Source of the DNA: Paracoccus cavernae | Lineage (GTDB): Bacteria; Pseudomonadota; Alphaproteobacteria; Rhodobacterales; Rhodobacteraceae | Direction: 5' to 3' | Assembly: GCA_030410095.1 (NCBI GenBank) | Contig: JAUFRC010000001.1 | Coordinates: 3,366,501 to 3,430,500, forward strand | Length of the DNA stretch: 64,000 nt | Shown here: positions 6,258-61,030 of the stretch, in pieces | Layout of the letters: each line of letters opens with the position of its first letter | Position numbering within the stretch: position 1 is the first letter of the stretch | The notes under the pieces: generated by a model | What the model was told of the DNA's origin: nothing | Databases searched by the model: none | What the model saw: the letters and a program-made list of their open reading frames with translations, nothing else | Position numbers and translations under genes: made by a program

Positions 6258-7483
<1,226 letters not shown>

Positions 7484-21616: not shown

Positions 21617-21693
21617 GGTCCCGTGGCTCAACTGGATAGAGCAGCCCCCTCCTAAGGGGCAGGTTACAGGTTCAAATCCTGTCGGGATCACCA
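21617..21693 (+). tRNA. tRNA-Arg (anticodon CCT)
   Basis: A full cloverleaf of 77 nt with encoded CCA. The acceptor GGTCCCG pairs with CGGGATC (one G-U), the D arm is GCTC/GAGC, the anticodon stem GCCCC/GGGGC holds loop CTCCTAA (anticodon CCT, reads AGG), and the T arm is ACAGG/CCTGT with TTCAAAT. The prophage integrase ends only 24 bp after it, so its 3' end is the likely attachment site. Confidence 0.95.
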
Positions 21694-49472: not shown

Positions 49473-51519
49473 ATGCCACAAGTCGGGGCGTGGCTCGCCG
49501 CTGTTTGGACAGCGGGCGGGGCGGGAGCGTTTGCGCTCAAAACGGCGGCCAGCATCGCCTTGAATGCGGCCATCGCCAAGGTGACGGCCCCAAAGGGCCG
49601 AAGCCGCGCGATATCCAGACCGAAGCCCGCGAAAGCGCGGCACAGCGCGTCCGGCATCTGGGGCGGGTGCGTGCCTCCGGCACGGTGATGTTTTGGGATT
49701 GGACACGGGTCGGTGGACAGCGCCGTCTCTTCAAGCTGCTTGCGGTCGGGCAGGGCGGCATCACGGGGTCGAGAAAGTCTGGCTCAACGACACGCTGGTC
49801 AGCCGATCGGGTGAGGCGGTCACGACCAGCCCCTACAATGGCAGGGTCTCGGTCCGCTGGCGCAGCGGCTTTGGCGATGAGCTCTCCGGCGGTGCCTTTG
49901 CAACGCTGCAGGCAGGCTTCGGTGCCTGGACGGCGCAGCATCGTCTCGACGGTGTCGGTACCATTCTCGGCGAATTCGACGCGGTCAAAGGCGAGGATGT
50001 GGCCGAGGTCTATAGCGGTGGCGATCCCGATATCACGGCCCTGATCCGTGGCGATCGCTGCTATCGACCCGCTGACGGTACTTATGCCTGGTCCGACAAC
50101 CTCGCGATCCAGTTGCGCGATGTCTTCACGCATCCGCTTTACGGCCCGCTCACGCTTGACGATATCGACAATGCCTCCTTCATTCAGGCTCAGCTTGATT
50201 GCGATGACGACTTGCCCAAGCGCGGTGGCGGGACGATCAAACGCTATAGCGGCGGCGGCAGCTATTCGTTGTCCGAGCCAGTGGTCGATGTCGCGCGCCG
50301 GATCTCGGATGCCTCGGCCGGTCAGATCTACATTACGACCGAAGGCAAGATCGGGTTTCGGGTCGGTAAATGGCGCGCGCCGAACCATACCATCCGAGGC
50401 GAGCATATCGTGGCGCTCGATATCGGTCCGGGCTCCGGCGAGTTCGAGCGCGTCACGACCCTGATCCCGAAATATGTCGCGCCCGAGATCGACTGGCAGG
50501 AAACCACCGCCGATGCCTGGGAGGATGCTGCCGCGATCGCACTCTATGGCGAAAGCGCGGAAAAGGAACTGGACGTGCCGTGGGTGCAGCACCACGGGCA
50601 AGGGCGCCGCTTGGCCAAGATCAAGCTGGCAAAGCTCAACCCGTCCTGGCGCGCGACCATCAAGCTCCGCTTCTGGGGCCTGCTCCTGCTCGAGGAGGAA
50701 ACGGTCAGGCTGCATCTGCCCGAACTCGGCCTGAGCAACGCCCCCGCATGGGTCGACAGCTTCGCCTTCGATGCCGATGGTGACGAGGGCGTGGTGACGG
50801 TGAACCTCATCGCCGCCGATCCGGCCAGCTTCAATTGGACTGCCGCCGAGGAGGGGATCCTCCAAGCACACCGCCGGCCATCAGCCATGAAGCCCCCTTC
50901 TGGCCGCGCCGGTGATTTCCTCGCTCGTCGTCATGACCAATGACGGCCCGCCCTATATGGTGCTCGCGGTCGACGACACCACCGGTCCCTACTATCTCGG
51001 GGGCCAGTATTGGCGCGAGGGCAGCACGCAGCGCTTTGATCTGGAGGTGCAGCAGACCCCAGTGACGGGAAGATCGTTGCGCGCTCACTGCCGAATGCCG
51101 ATCGCGGCCAGTACAATGTGCAGGTTGCCTGGTACACGACGCGCCTCACGGGGCCGGCTACGATCGGCTTGGGCAAGCGCGCATCAGAATATGCGACGGT
51201 GACCGGCATCGAGGTCTTTGCCAATACCACCCCGCCCGATGCGCCGGCCGTCATCAGCCAAAGCGGCACGGCCGGCGGCAGCTTCACCATTATCTTCGCC
51301 CCGGATCTCGGAGCGAACTACTATCGCACCTCGCTCTGGCGTGGCGCGCCCGGCTCCACCTTTGCCGACGCGACCTTCATGCGCTGGAGCTATGACACCT
51401 CCTCCGAGGTGGCGATCACCGGCAGCGTGCCGGCAGGCGGTGCGCGCTACTGGCTCCAGTCGGAGAACGGCAGCGGCAAGACATCGGCCGCGGTGCTGGT
51501 CGGACAATACATCCCTTAA
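49473..51519 (+). CDS. Tail tip / host-specificity protein (several frame breaks)
   Basis: Begins MPQVGAWLAAVWTAGGAGAF, a hydrophobic segment, then after a break near 49600 RDIQTEARESAAQRVRHLGR, VWLNDTLVSRSGEAVTTSPY, YAWSDNLAIQLRDVFTHPLY, SEPVVDVARRISDASAGQIY, and fibronectin-like beta repeats at the end (TTPPDAPAVISQSGTAGGSF). This is the lambda J / GTA gp15-like central tail tip. Breaks near 49600, 49770, 50905 and 51070 each need one base. Corrected length about 680 residues. Confidence 0.72.
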
Positions 51520-54526: not shown

Positions 54527-54807
54527 TGACGCGGCAGAAAGCCGCGGGAGACCGCGCCAGCCAGGCAATGTCTCCCGCGCAGGTATGGATCGCGGGACGT
54601 GTGCGATCCAGCCGCGCCAAGCACAGGCGGCAGACGGGGCGTAAGTTCATCTTTGTCGGGAAGCAAGTAATTCTTTGGAATCGAGTTTTTCCTGTGCGGA
54701 CGCGACAGCGTCGAGCAACGTGTCACGCCCGCATAGGAATGGCTGCCGTGCTCGCCGTTCGATTTAGAACTGCGTCAGCCAGCCCGGGAGGGCGGGATGA
54801 CGAATAA
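54526..54807 (+). CDS. Doubtful ORF after the fibre genes
   Basis: TGATG overlap with the previous gene and the first part MTRQKAAGDRASQAMSPAQV WIAGRV are plausible, but the rest is arginine-rich and of mixed quality. Probably a short gene whose frame is lost after about residue 45. Confidence 0.3.
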   Translation: MTRQKAAGDRASQAMSPAQVWIAGRVRSSRAKHRRQTGRKFIFVGKQVILWNRVFPVRTRQRRATCHARIGMAAVLAVRFRTASASPGGRDDE

Positions 54808-54857: not shown

Positions 54858-55142
54858 ATGACGGAAATCCGAGAATTCTGGGCCATGATCCTCGCCGCGA
54901 TTGGCTTCGTTGCTTGGCTGGTCCGGCTGGAAGCCCGCGTGAACGCAAACGCCAAGGAGGTGTTGCGGCACGAGGAACGATTGCGTGGCCTTGAAGCGGC
55001 GCAGCATCAGCAGGCGATTGGTGCCGCCGAGACCCGCGAGGCAATCAAGAGCATCAAGCTCACGGTTGATAGGATCTATGCGCAGATCTCCGCACAAGGC
55101 CGCGTCACCCACTGGGACGACAAGACCAGCCCGCCGAGGTGA
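54858..55142 (+). CDS. Spanin-like membrane-anchored coiled-coil protein
   Basis: 94 residues: MTEIREFWAMILAAIGFVAW (one N-terminal transmembrane helix), then LEARVNANAKEVLRHEERLR and AIGAAETREAIKSIKLTVDR, a continuous coiled coil. This matches inner-membrane spanins or holin-associated proteins at the start of lysis cassettes. GGGGAGACACA upstream. The stop is followed immediately by the first GGCCCCC hairpin. Confidence 0.6.
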   Translation: MTEIREFWAMILAAIGFVAWLVRLEARVNANAKEVLRHEERLRGLEAAQHQQAIGAAETREAIKSIKLTVDRIYAQISAQGRVTHWDDKTSPPR

Positions 55143-55144
55143 CC

Positions 55145-55211
55145 GGCCCCCGAAAACCGCGAAGAACTGGGGGCCGATCCGCTCGCGGGAGTTCCACAAA
55201 GAAACGCGAGC
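55145..55211. repeat. Lysis-region hairpin module 1
   Basis: GGCCCCC (55145-55151) / GGGGGCC (55169-55175), followed by a second perfect stem GCTCGCG (55181-55187) / CGCGAGC (55205-55211). It begins 3 bp after the spanin-like stop in the context GTGACCGGCCC. Confidence 0.7.
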
Positions 55212-55351
55212 AATACCATCATATCACGCCGCCCTGTGAACGTCACGGGGACAGCTGAATGCACGACTTATTACCTTCCGATGGTTGTCGTCGGCTGTGT
55301 CGTGGTTGCTGCGAACACGTTTCACTAACTGGCCAACAGTAGATCGGGCGT

Positions 55352-55774
55352 TTAAAAGAAAGCGTCGATCAGATTGATGACTGCGAGAATCTTACGTGTA
55401 TCGCGGTCGATCCGGTAAACCCTTTCGTCATCGCGGTAATAATCCCACCCGCGGCGATAATCGAGATCGTAGCGATCACGGTCGCGGATCAGTCGATAGT
55501 CGCCAATACGCAAGGTGTCGCCGATTCTGGTGCCATAACGCTTTCCGACCTGACCGGGAGGAATGCAGGGCGGGTCCTTCTTGGCCAGCCCAGGTGGGCA
55601 ATCAGCAACATAGCGCGCGCGGTTGCGGTGATCGCGTTCCGGGCCCCTGTCGTGGCTATGACGCGCACCGTTTCCTTTGCCGTTTCCACGACCATTGCCC
55701 GGGTCGGCAAAGGAAGGTGCGGAGGATACTGCCCCCAAAGCTGCGGCTAGGATCAAGCTGGCTGTCCGGTTCAT
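55352..55774 (-). CDS. Secreted basic protein inside the lysis region
   Basis: 140 residues with a signal peptide (MNRTASLILAAALGAVSSAP, cleavage near SFA-DP), a Gly/Asn/Arg/His-rich stretch (GNGRGNGKGNGARHSHDRGP), VADCPPGLAKKDPPCIPPGQ, and a C-terminal Tyr/Asp/Arg-rich part (YRRGWDYYRDDERVYRIDRD). Resembles RcnB-like or other exported small proteins of proteobacteria. Opposite to the lysis genes, so it is probably a moron expressed from the prophage. Confidence 0.68.
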   Translation of the reverse strand: MNRTASLILAAALGAVSSAPSFADPGNGRGNGKGNGARHSHDRGPERDHRNRARYVADCPPGLAKKDPPCIPPGQVGKRYGTRIGDTLRIGDYRLIRDRDRYDLDYRRGWDYYRDDERVYRIDRDTRKILAVINLIDAFF

Positions 55775-55902
55775 CTCGAGTTCTCCTGAGATACTTCGCA
55801 TTCGGTCATACCCTGAAGGCTCGGTTCAGTTGCATCACGAAATTTGGATGCGGCGAAAGTTGGCTCAAAGCAGCCGGCGCGAAGATGTGCGCATGACGGG
55901 CA

Positions 55903-56202
55903 ATGACAGATCCACCCTCTTTCCGTTCGCCCGAGTTCTGGGTGGCGGTCGCAATCGCGCTGATCGTGAAAAATTAAGACCACCGCGCAGCTCGGGCCGG
56001 TCAAGGTGATCACCACGATCGTCGTCGCCGTTGGTGCGGCTTGGGTCGCGACCGATTACACGGCCGAGGTTCTGGGTGTGCCCGAGCCGGTCGCGGCCGC
56101 AATCGTCACGCTGACGGCAGAGGGCGCGATGCGCTGGCTGCTGATGGCGGTCGATAACCCGAAGAATGCGATCTCGATCTCTGGAAGCACTGGCGGCGCT
56201 GA
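55903..56202 (+). CDS. Phage holin (two frame breaks)
   Basis: MTDPPSFRSPEFWVAVAIAL IVK, then after removal of one A in the A-run near 55976, TTAQLGPVKVITTIVVAVGA, AWVATDYTAEVLGVPEPVAA and AIVTLTAEGAMRWLLMAVDN, ending IWKHWRR. Three hydrophobic segments and a basic tail fit holins of alphaproteobacterial prophages. The second break near 56183 yields the C-terminal KHWRR. Confidence 0.65.
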
Positions 56203-56222
56203 AATCTCTGCCAGAGGTGACC

Positions 56223-56293
56223 GGCCCTGCCGGGCTGGGTGGCAGCGTCGGCAGGGCCAGTCTGCTCGCTGAGACTGTCATCAGAACGAGCAG
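56223..56293. repeat. Lysis-region hairpin module 2
   Basis: GGCCCTGCCG (56223-56232) pairs over 10 bp with CGGCAGGGCC (56249-56258), followed by CTGCTCG (56262-56268) / CGAGCAG (56287-56293). Same two-stem order as module 1. Confidence 0.7.
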
Positions 56294-56311
56294 ATCAACC
56301 ATACCACAACG

Positions 56312-56335
56312 CCCCGCCATCGCGCGGGGTTTTTT
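56312..56335 (+). terminator. Terminator-like hairpin immediately upstream of a ribosome-binding site
   Basis: CCCCGC / GCGGGG with TTTTTT, then CATGGAGAAACC and the ATG at 56348. A terminator ending at the Shine-Dalgarno could act as an attenuator for the next ORF. Confidence 0.6.
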
Positions 56336-56347
56336 CATGGAGAAACC

Positions 56348-56470
56348 ATGGCCGTCAATCTCACGCTGGGGCACACCCAGCGGATCATTCAGGCTGCGCG
56401 GGCCGCGGGCCTCTCAACGCCCCAAACAGCCTATGTTCTGGCAACCGCGCTCTGGGAAGTTGTGTCGTGA
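56348..56470 (+). pseudogene. Truncated phage lysozyme N-terminus
   Basis: MAVNLTLGHTQRIIQAARAA followed by GLSTPQTAYVLATALWEVVS and stop, 40 codons. GL(S/T)xPQTAYVLATAxWET is the start of a phage glycoside-hydrolase endolysin family; the catalytic part is missing. A remnant of a second endolysin. Confidence 0.5.
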
Positions 56471-56495
56471 TTGCCGTCGCAGCTTTGCGGTAACC

Positions 56496-56531
56496 GGCCC
56501 CCACAGGTTTGCGCACCAGGATGTGGGGGCC
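56496..56531. repeat. Lysis-region hairpin module 3
   Basis: GGCCCCCACA (56496-56505) pairs over 10 bp with TGTGGGGGCC (56522-56531), in the context GTAACCGGCCC. Confidence 0.7.
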
Positions 56532-56630
56532 AGAGTTCGCTCGCGGCTCTCCGTTCCGAAAGCGTCCCGAAAGGACCCTAGCACGTCCTGCCGCCTTTTG
56601 GCGGGCTTTTCATATCCGGAGATATCACCA

Positions 56631-56839
56631 ATGGAATCATCGTTCGCCGGAAGCGGAGTGCGGCTCCTATCGGACCAGTCGCCGCGCTGCTTCTCGAATT
56701 TTCTGGAGGCTTAGTCGGCCCTCACCCCGCGCCGTGGAGTGAGGGCCGTGACTCGGCCAAACTTCCAGGAAAGGCCAGTCATGCGAACTTTATCACAACT
56801 CCAGGCAAATGGACGAATTTTGTCCGGGTGAAGCAGTAA
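56631..56839 (+). CDS. Possible small ORF (frame break at start)
   Basis: Preceded by CCGCCTTTTGGCGGGCTTTTC and ATCCGGAGA, the same leader as the amidase gene. ATGGAATCATC resembles the amidase start; after one added base it reads GIIVRRKRSAAPIGPVAALL, LEFSGGLVGPHPAPWSEGRD, ending NFVRVKQ at a TAA that begins hairpin module 4. Could be a small lysis protein or decayed amidase start. Confidence 0.3.
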
Positions 56840-56841
56840 CC

Positions 56842-56883
56842 GGCCCCGAACCTGGCAATGACGAGCCGATCCGGAGCCGGGGC
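56842..56883. repeat. Lysis-region hairpin module 4
   Basis: GCCCCG (56843-56848) / CGGGGC (56878-56883) in the context GTAACCGGCCCC; weaker stem than the other modules. The 220 bp after it hold no gene that I can support. Confidence 0.5.
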
Positions 56884-57024
56884 TCAATCAAGCAGATCTG
56901 TTCGGATTCGCGAGAGCCTGAACTGATCTTAGCATAACTTCTTCCTAAGGGGGCCGCATTTACGCGTTCTGCCGGAACCCCGAGCTAAATCTTCGCCTAG
57001 GGGCGATGGGCTCGGGCGTAAGGG

Positions 57025-57066
57025 CCGGCCCCCAATCAATTTGCGCAACAGGAGTCTGGGGGCCGG
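57025..57066. repeat. Lysis-region hairpin module 5
   Basis: CCGGCCCCCA (57025-57034) pairs over 10 bp with TGGGGGCCGG (57057-57066). About 60 bp later the terminator-like GCCGCC-TTTC-GGCGGC-CTTTTC ends at the amidase ribosome-binding site. Confidence 0.7.
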
Positions 57067-57155
57067 TGGGAACCATCTGGGTATCATCAGGTGTCCCGCA
57101 AGCACTTTAGCACGACTCGCCGCCTTTCGGCGGCCTTTTCATATCCGGAGACATC

Positions 57156-57877
57156 ATGGACGGAATCATCCTGCACTGGACGGCGGGCGCCGACGGTGTG
57201 ACGCATCATGAGGCGGACAGCTACAACTTCCTGATTGGCCGCGACGGGACCATCACTCCGGGGAAGCATGCACCCGAAGCGCAGATCCCGCCGCTTAGGA
57301 AGGGATCCTATGCCGCCCATACCCTGAACGCCAACGGCAACCGCATTGGCGTCGCCCTCGATGCCATGGGCGATGCCAACGAGCGCCCGTTCCGCGCCGG
57401 CCGCTTCCCGATCACCGAACTGCAGCTGGATGTGCTGGTGACCTTTGTTGCCGATCTCTGCCTGAAATACCGCATCCCCGTGACGCGGCGCACGGTGCTG
57501 AGCCATGCCGAGGTCCAGCCGACGCTCGGGATCCGGCAGAACGGGAAATGGGACATCAGCTGGTTGCCCGGCATGGCCGCCCCGGCGATCCGGTCGCGGT
57601 GGGCGACCAGCTCCGCGCGCGGATCCTCGCGGCCATGGGCCAGCCCGCGATCGAGCCGGTCGCCTTTACGCCGGTGCTGCGGCGCGGATCCAAGGGCGAT
57701 GCCGTCCGCCGCCTGCAAGAGCTTCTGACGGGGCAGGGGCATGTTCTCGGCAAGGTCGACGGTGATTTCGGCGAGCGCACCGATGCCGCGGTGCGGATCT
57801 TTCAAAAGCTCGAGCAGCTGAAGCCCGACGGGATCGTCGGTGCGCAGACCTGGGCAAAACTCAACAAGGGACAGTGA
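57156..57877 (+). CDS. Endolysin: N-acetylmuramoyl-L-alanine amidase with peptidoglycan-binding domain (one frame break)
   Basis: MDGIILHWTAGADGVTHHEA (zinc His in LHWTAG), YNFLIGRDGTITPGKHAPEA, HTLNANGNRIGVALDAMGDA, TRRTVLSHAEVQPTLGIRQN and GKWDISWLPG (His, Lys/Asp of Amidase_2). One base near 57583 leads to GDPVAVGDQLRARILAAMGQ and the PG_binding_1 domain RRGSKGDAVRRLQELLTGQG, VDGDFGERTDAAVRIFQKLE. About 240 residues. It cleaves the stem peptide from muramic acid during lysis. Confidence 0.87.
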
Positions 57878-60730: not shown

Positions 60731-61030
60731 AGTAACCGTGACGCGGATCTCGACCGAGAATTGGCCAGCCGCCACAATTGGCGCACATACCTTGAAACGG
60801 CTGGCCACGCTCGAAGTGTAGGGAACTTGCGAGCTGCGGCGCTTATGCAGGACAGGTTCGGGGATGAAAAGGCTTTGGCTGACCAGCCCGCGTCAACTAT
60901 GCGCGGGCCGGTCAGATTGGTTGATCGTTACTCAAAAACTCGGCAAAAACACAAACTTAGCACTACGCCTTTTCTCTACTGCACAAGGATAGGTTTTGTC
61001 ATCTGTCGAAATGGTTAAGTGCGTTTCTAC
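60731..61030. other. No gene seen; hairpin near 60889
   Basis: 300 bp without a convincing reading frame. TGACCAGCCCGCG and CGCGGGCCGGTCA (about 60880-60913) form an imperfect stem that could end the DUF1275 transcript, but no T-run follows. Confidence 0.4.

Follow-up and report, generated by a model that had tools for sequence, protein, structure and literature searches.

To our knowledge, phage genomes are mosaics jointed between genes, and the markers of these joints are mostly unknown. The lysis region of a Paracoccus cavernae prophage raises the matter in a concrete form: what are the repeated hairpins between its genes, and what might they do? They were noticed in a stretch of 64,000 nucleotides (contig 1, 3366501-3430500), here called the window, where five copies of a hairpin module had been predicted and read as a possible attenuator or RNA-processing element that times the lysis genes. 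The modules lie in prophage DNA, with a tail-fibre-like gene on one side and the gene of an Amidase_2 endolysin on the other.

Hairpin modules of the lysis region

Stems were found at 55144, 56223, 56496, 56842 and 57025, and the five predicted hairpin modules are present. A count of perfect stems that reach 8 bp or more and enclose loops of 10-32 nt gave five in 2.05 kb (55100-57150), leaving out module 4, the stem of which is too short, and taking in a sixth hairpin that the original prediction had missed, with a GGCCCTCAC stem at 56717. Shuffles preserving dinucleotides had a mean of 0.49 such stems, and none of 500 was as high, while five such stems occurred in 1 of 310 sliding windows. 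Comparison of the copies side by side revealed a unit composed of a lead (TRACCGG), a stem A of 6-12 bp with a loop of 13-30 nt, usually a stem B of about 4-10 bp, a spacer and a tail (TAnCAY), the last of which had been overlooked. The pattern TA.CA[CT] was present nine times on the + strand between 55.1 and 57.15 kb and never on the - strand, where about one occurrence is expected from the + strand rate of the window; six of the nine are tails, two lie inside modules 1 and 5, and one stands before a start codon. The features of the region are as follows.

54543 to 54610, + strand: hairpin pair M0, behind the preceding gene, with no TAnCAY tail, perhaps related to the modules in kind only
54858 to 55142, + strand: gene X, 94 aa, with a hydrophobic N-terminal segment (by eye) and a TGA common to module 1
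55139 to 55227, + strand: module 1, with lead GTGACC, stem A (55144-55176), stem B (55181-55211) and tail TATCAC (55222-55227)
55232 to 55250: hairpin without a T-run, after module 1
56217 to 56307, + strand: module 2, with stem A (56223-56258), stem B (56261-56294) and tail TACCAC (56302-56307)
56311 to 56330, + strand: intrinsic-terminator-like hairpin behind module 2
56348 to 56470, + strand: open frame of 40 codons with a Shine-Dalgarno
56490 to 56584, + strand: module 3, with stem A (56496-56531) and tail TAGCAC (56579-56584)
56587 to 56605, + strand: terminator-like hairpin behind module 3
56711 to 56796, + strand: module M3b, the sixth, with stem A (56717-56747), stem B (56750-56780, one bulge) and tail TATCAC (56791-56796)
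56836 to 56935, + strand: module 4, with the arms of stem A (56842-56884), stem B (56894-56929, one mismatch) and tail TAGCAT (56930-56935)
56930 to 57107, + strand: segment from the module-4 tail to the module-5 tail, missing at this place in the prophage-like loci L161 and L200
57021 to 57113, + strand: module 5, with stem A (57025-57066), stem B (57074-57093) and tail TAGCAC (57108-57113)
57117 to 57134, + strand: terminator-like hairpin behind module 5, with the GGAG of the amidase Shine-Dalgarno 12 nt further on
57156 to 57877, + strand: Amidase_2 endolysin with a PG_binding_1 domain, in two overlapping frames in the window

The predicted lead, GTRACCGGCCC, was found in four copies within 1.7 kb of the lysis region, out of 33 occurrences in the 4.4-Mb genome, but module 5 carries GGGCCGGCCC instead. 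Likewise, the arms of the stem predicted for module 4 (56842-56884) are present, but they form just 6-7 bp and adopt another register in the minimum-energy fold. As had been stated, modules 1 and 2 each have a perfect second stem; the second stem of module 4 is interrupted (AGATC.GTTC / GAAC.GATCT), and that of module 5 has 6 bp including one wobble, while module 3 of the window has no clear stem B. The loop of stem A in module 5 contains TTTGCGCAACAGG. Regarding the stop codons that had been read in two modules, the TGA of module 1 terminates gene X, which gave weak PHROG matches only and no Pfam match; the TAA of module 4 closes an open frame of 70 aa in the sister locus L161, but the start of this frame is out of register in the window.

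Terminator-like hairpins were located behind modules 2, 3 and 5 (56311, 56587 and 57117-57119), as anticipated, and their stems begin 8-9 nt past the start of TAnCAY. The sequence predicted where hairpin and Shine-Dalgarno meet, ATCCGGAGA, was recovered after modules 3 and 5, but module 2 is followed by CATGGAGA. No T-run terminator stands directly behind modules 1, M3b and 4 of the window, and the number of terminators over 50-60 kb (8) was not above that of shuffles (mean 6.8, sd 3.2). The 40-codon frame, which we take to resemble an N-terminal remnant of another endolysin, gave no PHROG or Pfam match when searched in the correct frame. The amidase is a single open frame of 240 aa in another locus of the same genome, L162.

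Copies in related prophages

Four more prophage-like loci of the genome are related and carry the module, namely L161 at 631 kb, L200 at 1817 kb, L199 at 1889 kb and L162 at 3334 kb. L200 has counterparts of modules 1, 3, M3b and 4, the counterpart of module 3 having a perfect stem B of new sequence, and L162 and L199 carry an M2-type module ahead of the amidase. Further copies were accepted by eye on plasmid p1 of Paracoccus sp. TOH (L020; two copies, with TATAAC replacing TAnCAY in the second), in phage Psul1 (L017) and identically in G113 (L470), in the IMG contigs L009 (two copies) and L405, and in G012, at L496 and, away from lysis genes, at L205. The module at L205 lies near a gene that looks like an integrase. 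The order of lead, stem A and tail, on the strand of the endolysin, is constant in L161, L162, L199, L200, L020, L017, L470, L009, L405 and L496, and L161a, Psul1, L009 and L405 have a stem B that is short or uncertain. In the phages of other species (L009, L405 and L020), the copies adjoin different genes.

Stem A begins at most 14 nt from the stop codon in all six loci with a module behind gene X. Among the 30 regions shown behind gene X, six have a hairpin module by eye, the window included, and four of them have the TAnCAC tail. Many related lysis regions are without the module, which is therefore not essential to lysis.

The covariance-model search proposed along with the original prediction returned further examples in related prophages. 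Model R2 was built from 12 seeds, and model R3 from 18, L405 and L496b among them. R2 recovered module 3 (23.8 bits, E 0.0025), L200 M3b and L200 M4, all three outside the seed, although each has a relative or counterpart within it (for module 3, the L200 counterpart). On 116 lysis loci (73 from other genomes and 43 from viral contigs), R2 gave four matches up to E 2, one of them credible (L405, E 0.1 in 487 kb). The R2 scan of the genus (124 other genomes) gave three places at E 0.05, of which L205 was judged a module and two were judged chance, and it missed known copies, among them module 2 of the window, L496 in G012 and L470 in G113. With R3, 40 other genomes were without a match at E 0.1; among 92 loci, the matches were two of its seeds, L496b and L405, the second Psul1 module, which is not a seed (L014 and L470, E 0.23), and three more that were judged chance. 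As a measure of the false-positive level, R3 gave two weak matches on 78 of 240 background loci, which amount to 0.65 Mb of contigs. Since the genome scans miss known copies, the distribution is undercounted; as sampled, the family of modules looks small and patchy.

A strict descriptor of two perfect stems plus the tail, written once copies had been seen, matched five places in 1.03 Mb (both strands), all of them known modules. Without the tail, it matched 33 places in 1.03 Mb of lysis loci versus 62 in 2.11 Mb of other viral contigs, and the contrast was gone. A scan of viral contigs with the tail pattern (at least 120 matches) gave, among the matches listed, six places with a terminator-like tail, two of them the host's own and the other four judged non-modules by eye, and a loop-motif scan (at least 120 matches) left, among those listed, two that passed the tail and T-run filter, both judged non-modules. 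A hairpin at 3189 of L009 was set aside, as its position falls within an open frame. L343, L495, most L010 pairs and the first modules of Psul1 and L496 have no tail and stand outside the core family.

The Rfam search gave only a tRNA at 21617 in the window, and between 54.5 and 57.2 kb the best score was 21.0 bits versus a cut-off of 50. No description of such a hairpin element was found in the open-licence literature searched, and the terms hairpin, stem-loop, terminator and inverted repeat are absent from the main text of a paper on the Paracoccus virome (PMC6536676). The modules share one anatomy and one orientation and recur in related prophages; they constitute a real, small family of hairpin-bearing intergenic elements in Paracoccus prophages, absent from Rfam.

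Conservation of the fold

The original prediction held that the structure of the modules, not the sequence, is kept. Distant copies do differ in their arms and still pair, but 10 of 94 stem pairs break between orthologues, and TRACCGG and TAnCAY are conserved as sequence; overall, the claim is weakly supported. The orthologue count was taken from a MAFFT alignment made without structure and covers four sets of tailed modules in six comparisons, leaving out the module-3 pair, which is too diverged, and the L161 copy of M3b, the stems of which are the same as in the window. Its 94 comparable pairs comprised 81 unchanged pairs, one double change that pairs, two wobbles and the 10 breaks; in module 1, the gain or loss of one pair on both arms left two pairs on a gap. 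The tailless M0 (two comparisons, 36 pairs) gave 30 unchanged pairs, three double changes that include one event counted twice, one wobble and two breaks, and the tailed and M0 sets together (130 pairs) gave 111 unchanged pairs, four double changes, three wobbles and 12 breaks.

In the tailed sets, stems were less changeable than unpaired sites (13/94 pairs versus 82/342 sites), and lead and tail were constant while loops and spacers varied. The M2-type copies had 7 of 36 stem pairs broken and uncompensated. In the rows A9 and A14, which were trimmed, fitted by hand and chosen for their hairpins, 94% of the cells are paired, and each of the seven stem B positions changes on both sides in at least one place. 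For 19 hand-picked modules, the folding energy was low relative to shuffles (mean z -3.3). Better folding upstream of tail-bearing terminators was not clear (14 versus 67, p 0.06), including in the same comparison without the host genome (7 versus 66, p 0.53), and the tail was present in 2/3 terminators behind strict hairpin pairs versus 12/78 others (p 0.08). These results would indicate, at a weak to moderate level, a constraint on the fold in these modules.

Additional pairings were considered. Kissing pairs between loop A and loop B, suggested by modules 1 and 2, were rejected (Stouffer z -0.75 versus shuffled loops, 19 modules), whereas pairing of loop A with the spacer, the 5' arm and the loop of stem B showed a weak trend (Stouffer z -1.81, 19 modules). 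By eye, module 1 and its counterpart in L200 are closed by an outer stem, GTGA/TCAC, that other copies such as L161a or L009 do not keep. Also by eye, the 3' arm of stem A might pair with the terminator in module 2, but no such pairing looked possible in modules 3 and 5.

The modules might be ordinary leftovers, that is, GC-rich hairpins of single origin and shared ancestry, functionless beyond their terminators, whose recurrence reflects descent and duplication within a region in decay. The gene remnants between the modules, the uncompensated breaks of the M2-type copies, the many relatives that lack the module and the folding, which outside the host genome is no better upstream of tails, would agree with such an origin. 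However, lead and tail persist as loops and spacers diverge, the stems change less than unpaired sites, and copies stand beside different genes in the phages of other species, and this explanation appears somewhat unlikely.

Gene joints and proposed transcript ends

Any mosaic phage is expected to have joints between its genes. Six prophage comparisons, chosen rather than random, yielded 22 BLAST blocks with 44 ends, nine of which lie in the tail (modules 2, 3, 4, 5 and L496); some of these nine belong to short matches between tail-terminator stretches of different modules, and alignment similarity stops where a conserved motif stops. One of the 44 ends lies at the 5' edge, GAGGTGACC (L162 versus L199), and three lie in terminators (Psul1 versus L163, and two window-L161 blocks). 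Between the window and L200, one block runs from TAGCAC of module 3 to TTAGCA of module 4, and the next starts from TAGCAC of module 5. Between the window and L161, one block reaches its end in the module-4 tail and the following one begins at the module-5 tail, and two short tail-terminator matches begin at the module-2 TACCAC and the module-3 TAGCAC. Comparison with L162 gave one block that begins within the module-5 tail and another that crosses the module-2 tail, reaching the next start codon, and in L496 versus L164 a block begins at CCACAC.

The amidase, in blocks that are 88-92% identical, stands behind module 5 in the window, behind module 4 in both L161 and L200, and behind the M2-type module in L162 and L199. 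In L161 and L200, the module-4 tail leads straight into the terminator and the amidase. The segment that separates the tails of modules 4 and 5 is bordered by TTAGCA at each end and has no evident gene within, and no match to it was found elsewhere in 125 genomes of the genus. By these alignments, lysis genes have been swapped at or near the modules, which suggests that the modules mark gene ends and serve as shuffling points; in sequence terms, the shuffling role, which was not part of the original prediction, is at least as well supported as the attenuator or processing element first put forward.

We tentatively propose, with less than even confidence, that the modules are transcribed cistron-end elements that double as joints for lysis-gene exchange. 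Their position and orientation, in several copies behind a stop codon, and before a terminator and Shine-Dalgarno, would fit a transcribed element. In one group of Paracoccus prophages, every module would form the 3' terminus of a cistron of the late operon. The late mRNA would fold into hairpin A and usually hairpin B, often just past the stop codon, followed by the short unpaired TAnCAY stretch and, behind many copies, by an intrinsic terminator reaching the next Shine-Dalgarno; the module may form the 3' end of the transcript and limit read-through into the endolysin gene. The stretch of tail, terminator and Shine-Dalgarno would serve as the joint because it is alike from gene to gene, allowing the swap, loss and stacking of lysis genes among co-resident prophages, probably through ordinary short-homology recombination, as the mosaic blocks suggest. 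Should they act on the transcript, the modules would also be a compact means of providing every late gene in one operon with a separate 3' end. What marks the joints of phage mosaics becomes directly testable with the five co-resident loci, in which the same amidase stands behind three different modules.

Module and terminator could also be freed together as a prophage small RNA of 100-130 nt, the loop or TAnCAC of which would pair with targets. The hairpins, the conserved unpaired stretch, the T-run terminator and the presence of more than one copy per genome are in agreement with this, but the sole promoter-like site in 50-60 kb lies on the - strand (55246-55218) and three window modules (1, M3b and 4) have no T-run terminator directly behind them, and we consider such RNAs unlikely.

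An attenuator or put-like antiterminator, through which the RNA would make RNA polymerase either pass or obey the terminator behind the module and so time the endolysin, seems distinctly unlikely. Modules 2, 3 and 5 directly precede a terminator and Shine-Dalgarno, the two adjacent stem-loops resemble the put RNAs of HK022, and the pairs of loop A with the spacer, 5' arm and loop of stem B are slightly above shuffled; nevertheless, conserved alternative pairing with the terminator was not seen by eye, pairing between loops A and B does not exceed that of shuffled loops, and the same kind of terminator is present in many relatives without the module.

Improbable too are site-specific cassettes, in which stems A and B would fold as single-stranded DNA and TAnCAC would be the crossover, as in attC-like lysis cassettes. 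The TTAGCA on both sides of the segment between modules 4 and 5, its absence from that place in L161 and L200, and the 9/44 block ends in the tail would favor them. Against this, the attC core (GTTRRRY or RYYYAAC) was found in 0/13 modules with flanks, the genome (79% complete) gave no integron integrase over the cut-off, with six weak matches below it, and no match to the Y1 transposase PF01797, the segment is without an evident gene, and identical copies at new sites were not seen; moreover, the breaks between L162 and L199 (5' edge) and between Psul1 and L163 (terminator) are not at the tail. A novel system that cuts at TAnCAC and captures, stacks and loses lysis cassettes, each with terminator and Shine-Dalgarno, is very improbable.

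The proposed transcribed cistron ends that double as joints can be compared with several known systems. Integron attC sites have the core pair RYYYAAC ... GTTRRRY. The modules are like attC in being folded sites with a variable stem behind a stop codon and in bounding gene segments by a short core, but this core is missing in 13/13 modules and no integron integrase exceeded the cut-off. Like the REP and BIME elements of RAYT transposases, they are palindromes that stand in series in the intergenic space 3' of genes; unlike REP, these palindromes vary (in stem A at the inner pairs and in stem B at all seven positions, in the hand-fitted rows), and in contrast to REP/RAYT and IS200/IS605-derived elements, no Y1 transposase was found in the 79% complete genome. 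The put RNAs of phage HK022 consist of a pair of stem-loops that only a few nucleotides of the phage transcript separate, whereas the modules stand in the late region, before a terminator and in many copies, and are known from sequence rather than from mutants. The promoter-stem-loop cassettes (PeSL) of T4-type phages and the boundary sequences of lambdoid phages are short intergenic elements at gene-shuffling joints. The modules are likewise short intergenic stem-loops where phage genes shuffle, but, unlike for PeSL, no + strand promoter-like site was found in 50-60 kb, their loops are of 13-30 nt, and they usually comprise two stems and the TAnCAY tail.

The Pas small RNAs of lambdoid prophages of pathogenic E. 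coli have several intergenic copies, with stem-loops and a 3' intrinsic terminator, and the proposed seed of PasB lies in an unpaired stretch ahead of the terminator (PMC13192938). Unlike Pas, which have a gammaproteobacterial host, the modules often abut stop codons and some have no terminator; known from their sequence alone, they are likened to Pas by architecture. The modules and Pas are both intergenic multi-copy prophage elements, with a terminator behind modules 2, 3 and 5 but not behind modules 1, M3b and 4 of the window, and in the literature searched Pas are the nearest analogue in architecture (PMC13192938, a preprint).

Genes flanking the hairpin modules

The features of the window considered here are as follows.

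50571-50655, minus strand: tRNA-Ser call (ARAGORN)
55352-55801, minus strand: gene between the repeated hairpin modules 1 and 2
56006-56272: second small gene (98 amino acids in L161)
57156-57877: amidase endolysin, in two overlapping frames
60879-60968: hairpin CTGACC.GCCCGCG/CGCGGGC.GGTCAG, then TTAGCACTACGCC (15.6 bits with model R1)

The product of the minus-strand gene has, by eye, a signal-like N terminus and matched nothing in Pfam or PHROG, and relatives of the gene are present in the lysis regions of Pthi1, Pben1, plasmid p1 of Paracoccus sp. TOH and locus L010. The second small gene is interrupted in the window by two in-frame TGA codons within the match, while its matches in L161 and L162, two further prophage-like loci of the same genome, are free of internal stops. 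The amidase endolysin, split in the window, is disrupted in L161 as well and forms a single open frame in L162; an intact copy is present in the same genome.

The tRNA-Ser call

Long frames run through the site called by ARAGORN, and Rfam listed no tRNA there; the call is probably false.

Other hairpins

Lacking the GGCC-led stem and the TAnCAC module tail, highly regular hairpin pairs were found in the lysis region of P. indicus (L343, 3180-3250) and, immediately 3' of gene X, the 94-aa gene that precedes module 1 in the window, in that of the Paracoccus genome G009 (L495). The hairpin at 60879-60968 and another at position 6650 of the IMG contig L009 (CTGACCGGCTT/AAGCCGGTCAG) are perhaps terminators between convergent operons.
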